From Chryseobacterium sp. CY350 (GTDB lineage Bacteria; Bacteroidota; Bacteroidia; Flavobacteriales; Weeksellaceae), in the NCBI RefSeq assembly GCF_027945075.1, contig NZ_CP116034.1:1922001-1986000 (forward strand): 64,000 nucleotides of DNA, in the 5' to 3' direction. A program made the position numbers and the translations under genes. Positions within the stretch are counted from its first letter, which is position 1, and every line of letters begins with the position of its first letter. Below, piece after piece: positions 55,490-57,184 of the stretch. The notes below the pieces were generated by a model, which was not told where the DNA came from, ran no database searches, and saw only the letters and a program-made list of their open reading frames with translations.

Positions 55490-56509
55490 ATGAGCATTGA
55501 AACATTAGAAAAAGCAAAATCTGCAATTCCTGTAAGAGGATTTTTAGATATAAAAGATATAGCGATTCCTCAAGGTGAAGATTTGGTAAAAGCCATCCTT
55601 CAACTGAAAGAAGAAAAAAACGCAGTAATTCTGGCGCACTACTATCAACCGGGAGAGATTCAGGATATTGCTGATTTCCTTGGAGATTCTCTTCAATTGG
55701 CAAGACAGGCGAAAGATACAGATGCCGATATGATTGTATTTTGTGGAGTGCATTTCATGGCCGAAGCTGCAAAAATTCTGAACCCGACAAAAAAAGTAGT
55801 TCTTCCAGATACAATGGCAGGATGTTCTTTAGCAGACGGATGTTCAGGAGAAGGTTTGAGAAAAATGCGTGAGCAACATCCAAACGCTTTGATTGCTACT
55901 TACATCAACTGTAATGCAGAAACGAAAGCTGAAAGTGACATCATCGTAACCAGTTCAAATGCCGAAACGGTGATTGAAGCTTTACCGACTGACAGACCGA
56001 TTATTTTCGCTCCGGATAAAAATTTAGGAAGATATTTATCAAAAAAAACCGGCCGTGATATGATTCTTTGGGACGGAAGCTGCATCGTTCACGAAGCTTT
56101 CTCCATGGAAAGAATTGCACAACAGTTAGCCGATAATCCTGATGCAAAAATGATTGCTCACCCCGAAAGTGAAGAAGCCGTTTTGAAACTGGCTCACTTT
56201 ATCGGTTCAACTTCTGCACTTTTGAATTTTGTGGAACAAGACGACTGTCAGAAATTTATCATCGCAACTGAGGAAGGAATTCTTCACGAAATGAGAAAAC
56301 GTGCACCACACAAAGAATTGATTCCTGCTTTGGTTTTTGACGAGAGCTGTAACTGTTCAGAATGTTTTTACATGAAGAGAAATACAATGGAAAAATTGTA
56401 TTTGTGCATGAAATACGAACTTCCTGAAATCATTATTGAAGAAGAGCTTCGACTGAGAGCACTGAAGCCGATTGAGGCAATGCTTGATCTTTCTAAAAGT
56501 ATTAAATAA
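55490..56509 (+). CDS. nadA: Quinolinate synthase
   Basis: NadA condenses iminoaspartate with dihydroxyacetone phosphate to quinolinate in NAD synthesis, using a [4Fe-4S] cluster. The 339-residue protein shows VILAHYYQPGEIQDIADFLG, FCGVHFMAEAAKILNP, MAGCSLADGCSGEGL, NCNAETKAESDIIVTSSNA, the HPES motif in IAHPESEEAV, and ESCNCSECFYMKRNTMEKLY with candidate cluster cysteines. nadB and nadC are not in the window. Confidence 0.96.
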   Translation: MSIETLEKAKSAIPVRGFLDIKDIAIPQGEDLVKAILQLKEEKNAVILAHYYQPGEIQDIADFLGDSLQLARQAKDTDADMIVFCGVHFMAEAAKILNPTKKVVLPDTMAGCSLADGCSGEGLRKMREQHPNALIATYINCNAETKAESDIIVTSSNAETVIEALPTDRPIIFAPDKNLGRYLSKKTGRDMILWDGSCIVHEAFSMERIAQQLADNPDAKMIAHPESEEAVLKLAHFIGSTSALLNFVEQDDCQKFIIATEEGILHEMRKRAPHKELIPALVFDESCNCSECFYMKRNTMEKLYLCMKYELPEIIIEEELRLRALKPIEAMLDLSKSIK

Positions 56510-56555: not shown

Positions 56556-56563
56556 TACATTTG
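56556..56563 (+). promoter_or_regulatory. -7 promoter element of GG-leader peptide gene
   Basis: TACATTTG matches TANNTTTG, 22 bases before the ATG at 56586, showing that the tiny gene has its own promoter. No TTG at ideal spacing is seen. Confidence 0.5.
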
Positions 56564-56585: not shown

Positions 56586-56753
56586 ATGAAAAATTTAAAA
56601 AAATTAGACCGATCAAGCTTGAAAAAAATTAAAGGTGGAGATCTAACTTTATAATGTAGTTTAGAATGTAGAATTAGCTACGAATGCAAAATAGGATGTT
56701 ACGGAATTCCTCAATGCGTTCCAATGGGACAATATATTCCACCAAATTGCTAA
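56586..56753 (+). pseudogene. Double-glycine leader, Cys-rich bacteriocin-like peptide gene with in-frame stop
   Basis: The ATG at 56586 opens MKNLKKLDRSSLKKIKGG, a canonical double-glycine leader as in Chryseobacterium bacteriocin-like peptides, then DLTL and a TAA (56652-56654). The same frame goes on for 32 codons to TAA 56751-56753 as CSLECRISYECKIGCYGIP plus QCVPMGQYIPPNC, with six cysteines, exactly the core expected after such a leader. A -7 element lies before it and a hairpin terminator after it. Either the gene has a recent nonsense mutation, the TAA is a sequencing error, or the stop is read through. No C39 peptidase/ABC exporter or modification enzyme is in the window. Confidence 0.75.
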
Positions 56754-56758
56754 AAACT

Positions 56759-56784
56759 AAGTACTCGTAAAGAGTACTTTTTTA
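56759..56784 (+). terminator. Terminator of GG-leader peptide gene
   Basis: Perfect 8-base stem AAGTACTC / GAGTACTT with a 5-base loop, followed by TTTTTA, starting 5 bases after the peptide gene's final stop. Confidence 0.82.
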
Positions 56785-56800
56785 TTTTAAAAACAAAACT

Positions 56801-57184
56801 ATGAGCAAAATATTCTTAGAAGACGTAAAGATTTACGCTTATCACGGCGTTCTTCCCGAAGAAAACATAATCGGGACTTATTATATTGTAAATGCAGAAA
56901 TTCATACAGATTTGTGGGAAGCAGCAGTTTCGGACGATTTAAATGATACAATCAGCTATGCAGATATTAATGAAATCATTCATGACGAAATGAAAATTCA
57001 ATCTAAATTGCTTGAGCATGTCGCAGGAAGAATTATCGCGAAAATCAATGAAAAATTTGATCAGATTTCTTACATCAAATTAAGAATCACCAAAACCAGT
57101 CCGCCCATGAAAGGCGAAATGAAAGGCGCAAGTATTGAGCTTGAAAAAAGTTTTTTATTAGGTGGAATAAAAGGAAATGAGTAA
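56801..57184 (+). CDS. folB: Dihydroneopterin aldolase
   Basis: FolB cleaves 7,8-dihydroneopterin to 6-hydroxymethyl-dihydropterin and glycolaldehyde in folate synthesis. The 127-residue protein has IFLEDVKIYAYHGVLPEENI (with the conserved Tyr and the G-V-x-x-E-E), ISYADINEIIHDEM, LLEHVAGRI and the C-terminal RITKTSPPMKGEMKGASIEL with the catalytic-type Lys. It feeds FolK, whose gene is at 17315. It is followed by a DUF4403 gene 27 bases on. Confidence 0.94.
   Translation: MSKIFLEDVKIYAYHGVLPEENIIGTYYIVNAEIHTDLWEAAVSDDLNDTISYADINEIIHDEMKIQSKLLEHVAGRIIAKINEKFDQISYIKLRITKTSPPMKGEMKGASIELEKSFLLGGIKGNE

Follow-up and report, generated by a model that had tools for sequence, protein, structure and literature searches.

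The window, a 64,000-nucleotide stretch of the genome of Chryseobacterium sp. CY350, holds a short peptide gene on the + strand between nadA and folB. The upstream neighbour nadA (quinolinate synthase, 55490-56509, + strand) serves as the anchor of the site, and folB, annotated as dihydroneopterin aldolase, lies downstream on the same strand (56801-57184). The peptide gene itself occupies positions 56586-56753 (+), and its translation reads MKNLKKLDRSSLKKIKGG, DLTL, a stop, CSLECRISYECKIGCYGIPQCVPMGQYIPPNC and a second stop. The first part, MKNLKKLDRSSLKKIKGG, is a double-glycine (GG) leader (56586-56639, +), followed by the four codons for DLTL (56640-56651, +), which would form the first residues of the mature peptide and are the same in the related proteins P0002 and P0004. 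The frame that opens with the ATG is 22 codons long and is closed by a premature in-frame TAA (56652-56654, +), where close intact relatives have a sense codon. Beyond this stop, translation and profile search identify a remainder of 32 codons in the same frame (56655-56750, +), presumably untranslated, with cysteines at core positions 1, 5, 11, 15, 21 and 32. This remainder stays open up to the original stop TAA of the peptide gene (56751-56753, +), and the gene ends in the same way in genomes G061 and G094. The preliminary description of this DNA had proposed exactly this order of leader, four codons, TAA, 32 six-cysteine codons and a final stop, without any further stop in between, and the translation matches it in full. 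It had also stated that no exporter or modification enzyme adjoins the gene, in agreement with nadA and folB being its neighbours.

The peptide gene is flanked by putative expression signals of its own, as had been suggested for both an upstream element and a terminator. A motif search located a match to the Bacteroidota -7 box TAnnTTTG (consensus as given in an excerpt of PMC9723704) at 56556-56563 (+); the TANNTTTG match is TACATTTG and lies 30 bases before the peptide ATG. The strict TAnnTTTG is not a constant of the nadA peptide site: of 35 loci compared, the window included, 10 carry it upstream, while TATATTTA is found in 20 of the other 25. A sigma-70-type scan, which is not made for Bacteroidota promoters, returned 0 promoters against a mean of 2.0 in shuffled sequences. 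Downstream of the gene, a terminator-like hairpin followed by a T run is located at 56759-56779 (+), and a similar stem is present in G061 and G094. The terminator scan gave two hits, which are one stem read on both strands; shuffled sequences gave 0.1 on average.

The leader places the gene in a known protein family. It scores 35.3 bits to the NCBIfam model leader_Chryseo (NF047798, 'bacteriocin-like protein'; cut-off 23.5), and four intact orthologues score 25.3 to 34.3 bits to the same model. The window gene carries the leader of NF047798 and lacks a translated core, as the TAA follows residue 22; it is a broken member of the leader_Chryseo bacteriocin-like proteins. The term 'bacteriocin-like' is the name given to the family by NCBI (NF047798). 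Like other members, the gene combines the same 18-residue leader with a small cysteine-rich core and belongs to a family with several copies per genome; compared with leader_Chryseo at large, its core represents a six-cysteine subfamily anchored to nadA, and a stop interrupts the window copy. The CCPGW family of putative bacteriocins (NF047792) has a similar leader and length, and membership of this family was rejected, since the cut-off is 80 bits and the five proteins scanned reached 20.9 to 31.9. No Pfam domain exceeded its cut-off in the five peptides scanned. Literature searches under the leader_Chryseo family names returned unrelated papers alone, and a search for double-glycine-leader bacteriocins of Chryseobacterium turned up graspetides alone.

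The distribution of the gene in the genus was determined with a profile built from eight intact relatives, which was run against 173 genomes with at most 39 candidates scored per genome. Among the matches listed, the six-cysteine peptide was found at 64 bits or more over nearly its whole length at 36 places in 35 of the 173 genomes, and each of the 36 copies closely follows nadA and shares its strand. At 34 of these 36 listed places, the reading frame runs uninterrupted from the ATG to the stop and gives peptides of 52 to 55 residues, and all six cysteines are kept in 33 of the 34 open copies, as counted by eye. In the G167 copy (L056 1501-1662, reverse strand), a stretch that is also present in L080 (Chryseobacterium sp. 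CH21), the frame is open and the last of the six cysteines is replaced by serine. Only two of the 36 listed copies are broken, the window copy and that of G019. Intact orthologues at the same nadA-folB site occur in G061 and G094. The uninterrupted peptide that the preliminary description proposed to look for in relatives therefore exists, in frame with a GG leader and at the same nadA site, and 34 open homologues at this site rule out a chance open reading frame. Named matches are also in agreement with Chryseobacterium, the genus that the preliminary description had assumed. At the level of the taxonomic family, a sample of 296 genomes from 33 genera was searched with at most 22 candidates scored per genome; 36 of the 296 genomes matched at 1e-8 or better, all of them in one of the 33 genera, and four of these 36 (G004, G012, G050 and G106) gave partial matches alone, at 38-39 bits. 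Judged from these sequence comparisons, this is a real nadA-linked peptide gene, seen in Chryseobacterium alone within the sample searched.

The window allele has very probably been inactivated recently, and is best explained as a late loss within a nadA-linked gene for a six-cysteine leader_Chryseo peptide with a GG leader. The closest intact protein found, P0002, is named for Chryseobacterium sp. Hurlbut01 and comprises 6 member sequences on 20 contigs; strain Hurlbut01 has been placed near C. aquaticum, according to an excerpt of PMC7471780. P0002 shares 29 of the 32 residues of the core past the stop, and because of this agreement the stop in the window is regarded as recent. Apart from the stop, the window and P0002 differ by eye at 4 of 54 residues, three of which are in the core. 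In a comparison by eye with P0001-P0004, one residue is peculiar to the window core, the serine at core position 2, and this serine occurs also in the intact orthologues of G037, G150 and G016. Against G061, the post-stop core has a dN of 0.076 and a dS of 0.335, the latter from about 20 synonymous sites, so that the timing is rough, and the P0002 step of the dating is drawn from protein sequence. In a neutral simulation, the probability of at most one amino-acid change fell from 0.56 with 0.02 substitutions per site to 0.11 with 0.05 and 0.004 with 0.1. An indel as the cause of the stop is ruled out, since frame and length agree with G061 across it. On this evidence, the TAA at 56652-56654 most likely arose late. 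The preliminary description had offered very recent decay as one option, and the intact relatives at the site and the almost unaltered core past the stop support it.

The synonymous divergence of the neighbouring genes is higher. Between the window and G061, dS is 0.673 for nadA and 0.935 for folB, and the value for the whole peptide gene against G061 (L005), 0.29, lies below both (0.67 and 0.94), with small numbers behind it. Recombination is a possible reason for the low dS of the peptide gene relative to nadA and folB.

The copy of G019 was broken independently and is more decayed, with a frameshift in the leader and two of the six cysteines replaced. No -7 box was found upstream of this copy (L067 around 1488-1650), and the same stretch is present also in a record of Chryseobacterium sp. 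SN22 (L089). With one young and one older loss side by side, the gene shows the pattern of ordinary, recurrent gene loss.

The main rival, which is unlikely, takes the TAA for an error of base calling or assembly, so that the living strain would carry an intact gene. The rest of the peptide gene is undamaged and the TAA is observed in one genome of the species, represented by one assembly, as would be expected of such an error. However, this assembly is a single contig of 4.09 Mb that is 99.48% complete and 0.25% contaminated, the adjoining nadA and folB are open frames with a normal match, and a chance single-base error at such a place would be improbable beforehand.

A tolerated stop is a further rival. 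If some ribosomes read through or recoded the TAA, the full precursor would be made at a low level, and the kept frame, composition and six cysteines of the core are also expected of a read-through gene; the open frame and near-unaltered core past the TAA fit this reading. Yet no internal stop was reported for any of the other 35 listed places, 34 of which have an uninterrupted frame from the ATG to the final stop. The RNA past the stop folds like shuffled sequences (z -0.91; an equal or better fold in 30 of 200 shuffles), on which ground a stimulatory RNA structure was rejected. TAA is also the commonest stop of the window, where it closes 36 of 47 long open reading frames, and it closes the peptide gene, nadA and folB as well. 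A restart of translation meets the obstacle that the ATG overlapping the TAA runs straight into a TAG, and that the sole in-frame ATG past the stop is core codon 24. Nothing was found in support of the readthrough or recoding that the preliminary description had raised, and a tolerated stop is highly improbable. The same holds for its adaptive version, which it would be hard to credit, in which low-rate readthrough yields small amounts of a costly secreted peptide and selection maintains the six-cysteine core.

It has also to be considered whether the 22-residue leader-only product is useful itself, be it as a decoy or as a regulator of the exporter's peptidase. The leader and the -7 box match are intact, but no leader-only product was seen among relatives: in 77 regions downstream of nadA, all 107 peptides detected have at least 35 residues. 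Leaders of this kind are in any case available from five other genes in the window genome; a role for the short product is extremely improbable. The preferred explanation remains a recently inactivated allele. A strong second copy that could complement it was rejected, as the window genome (G000) has two profile matches, of which the second was too weak to appear among those listed.

The 3' flank of nadA is rich in genes of this kind well beyond the six-cysteine subfamily. In total, 78 regions were fetched (L104-L181; also L042-L071), and one of these, L176, was dropped as too short at 160 bases, leaving 77. These regions were hand-picked and are a non-random set, 75 coming from nadA-end matches and three (G004, G106 and G156) from peptide matches, and they are taken from genomes other than the 35 with the six-cysteine family. 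At least one leader of this kind lies within about 1.6 kb in 49 of the 77 regions, with at least 107 peptides in all; both figures are lower bounds, given that the custom leader pattern misses broken or odd leaders. The G156 copy, for example, was matched by the profile and yet missed on the + strand by the leader pattern. Beside nadA, the genes form arrays of up to five in a row, mostly antisense to nadA. In 12 genomes of 4.2 to 5.5 Mb, chosen by hand and several of them for their arrays, 9 to 35 leaders were counted per genome, and simple arithmetic from these 12 indicates that an even scatter would give roughly 0.003 to 0.011 leaders per 1.6 kb. Across Chryseobacterium, cysteine-rich GG peptides of the leader_Chryseo kind have a hot spot in the nadA 3' flank, and this is a more general observation than the stop.

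Machinery that could serve such peptides is encoded elsewhere in the window genome, where the preliminary description had advised searching for C39 exporters and paralogous GG leaders; both were found. At G000:C1 2443189-2450218 there are two C39 peptidase-ABC exporters, both with an HlyD-type protein as neighbour; their C39 domains lie at 2446301-2446666 and 2448711-2449106. The wider stretch G000:C1 2443189-2451591 (L093 3190-11592) contains the exporters, two HlyD-type proteins, a CAAX-protease-like protein and two GG peptides. The leaders of these two peptides are absent from the leader_Chryseo matches of the genome. Six leader_Chryseo leaders are present in the genome, that of the window and those of five other genes. 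Four of the peptides lie around a gene with VKOR and Thioredoxin_4 domains, three on one side (2598319-2598811) and one on the other (2600577-2600741); in this cluster, which spans G000:C1 2598319-2600741 (L094 6320-8742), the fourth peptide faces the three. The VKOR domain, at 2599605-2599979, is the sole VKOR match in the genome, and the VKOR-Thioredoxin_4 protein is a candidate oxidase for the leader_Chryseo peptides. A C39-like N-terminal domain in this protein is not supported, as its first 120 residues gave no Pfam hit.

Similar components are known from the bacteroidetocins. Excerpts of PMC6671954 describe these class IIf peptides of Bacteroidota as GG-leader cysteine peptides with a C39-type ABC exporter and a thiol oxidoreductase. 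In the same excerpts, bacteroidetocins A and B have four cysteines, leaders of 15 residues and a compact four-gene region, and the group generally has a GG leader of 15-16 residues and mostly four similarly placed cysteines. In contrast, the window family has an 18-residue leader and six cysteines, and its exporters and oxidase lie elsewhere in the genome, while its neighbours are nadA and folB. Leader length, cysteine number and the lack of an adjoining exporter or oxidoreductase rule out membership of the bacteroidetocins as these excerpts define them.

By analogy with the bacteroidetocins, it is proposed that a shared C39 exporter would cleave and export the intact peptides and that the VKOR-thioredoxin protein would oxidise them. 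The intact relatives encode a precursor of 52 to 55 residues, which would be recognised by a C39 peptidase-ABC exporter and cut after the GG, and the mature core would fold with up to three disulfides, a step in which the VKOR-thioredoxin protein may help. The intact peptide may act against other bacteria or as a signal. In the window genome, translation would end after residue 22 and yield just the leader with four more residues, leaving no core to export, and the function has presumably been lost in the window allele.

The stop itself is a case of ordinary gene loss. Because the gene is fixed beside nadA, has been lost independently in a young and an older event and lies in a flank that much of the genus has packed with related genes, the gain and loss of secreted peptides can be measured at one orthologous site across many species. 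In addition, the setting points to a candidate oxidase, the VKOR-thioredoxin protein, and to a pair of exporters for an uncharacterised peptide family of Chryseobacterium.
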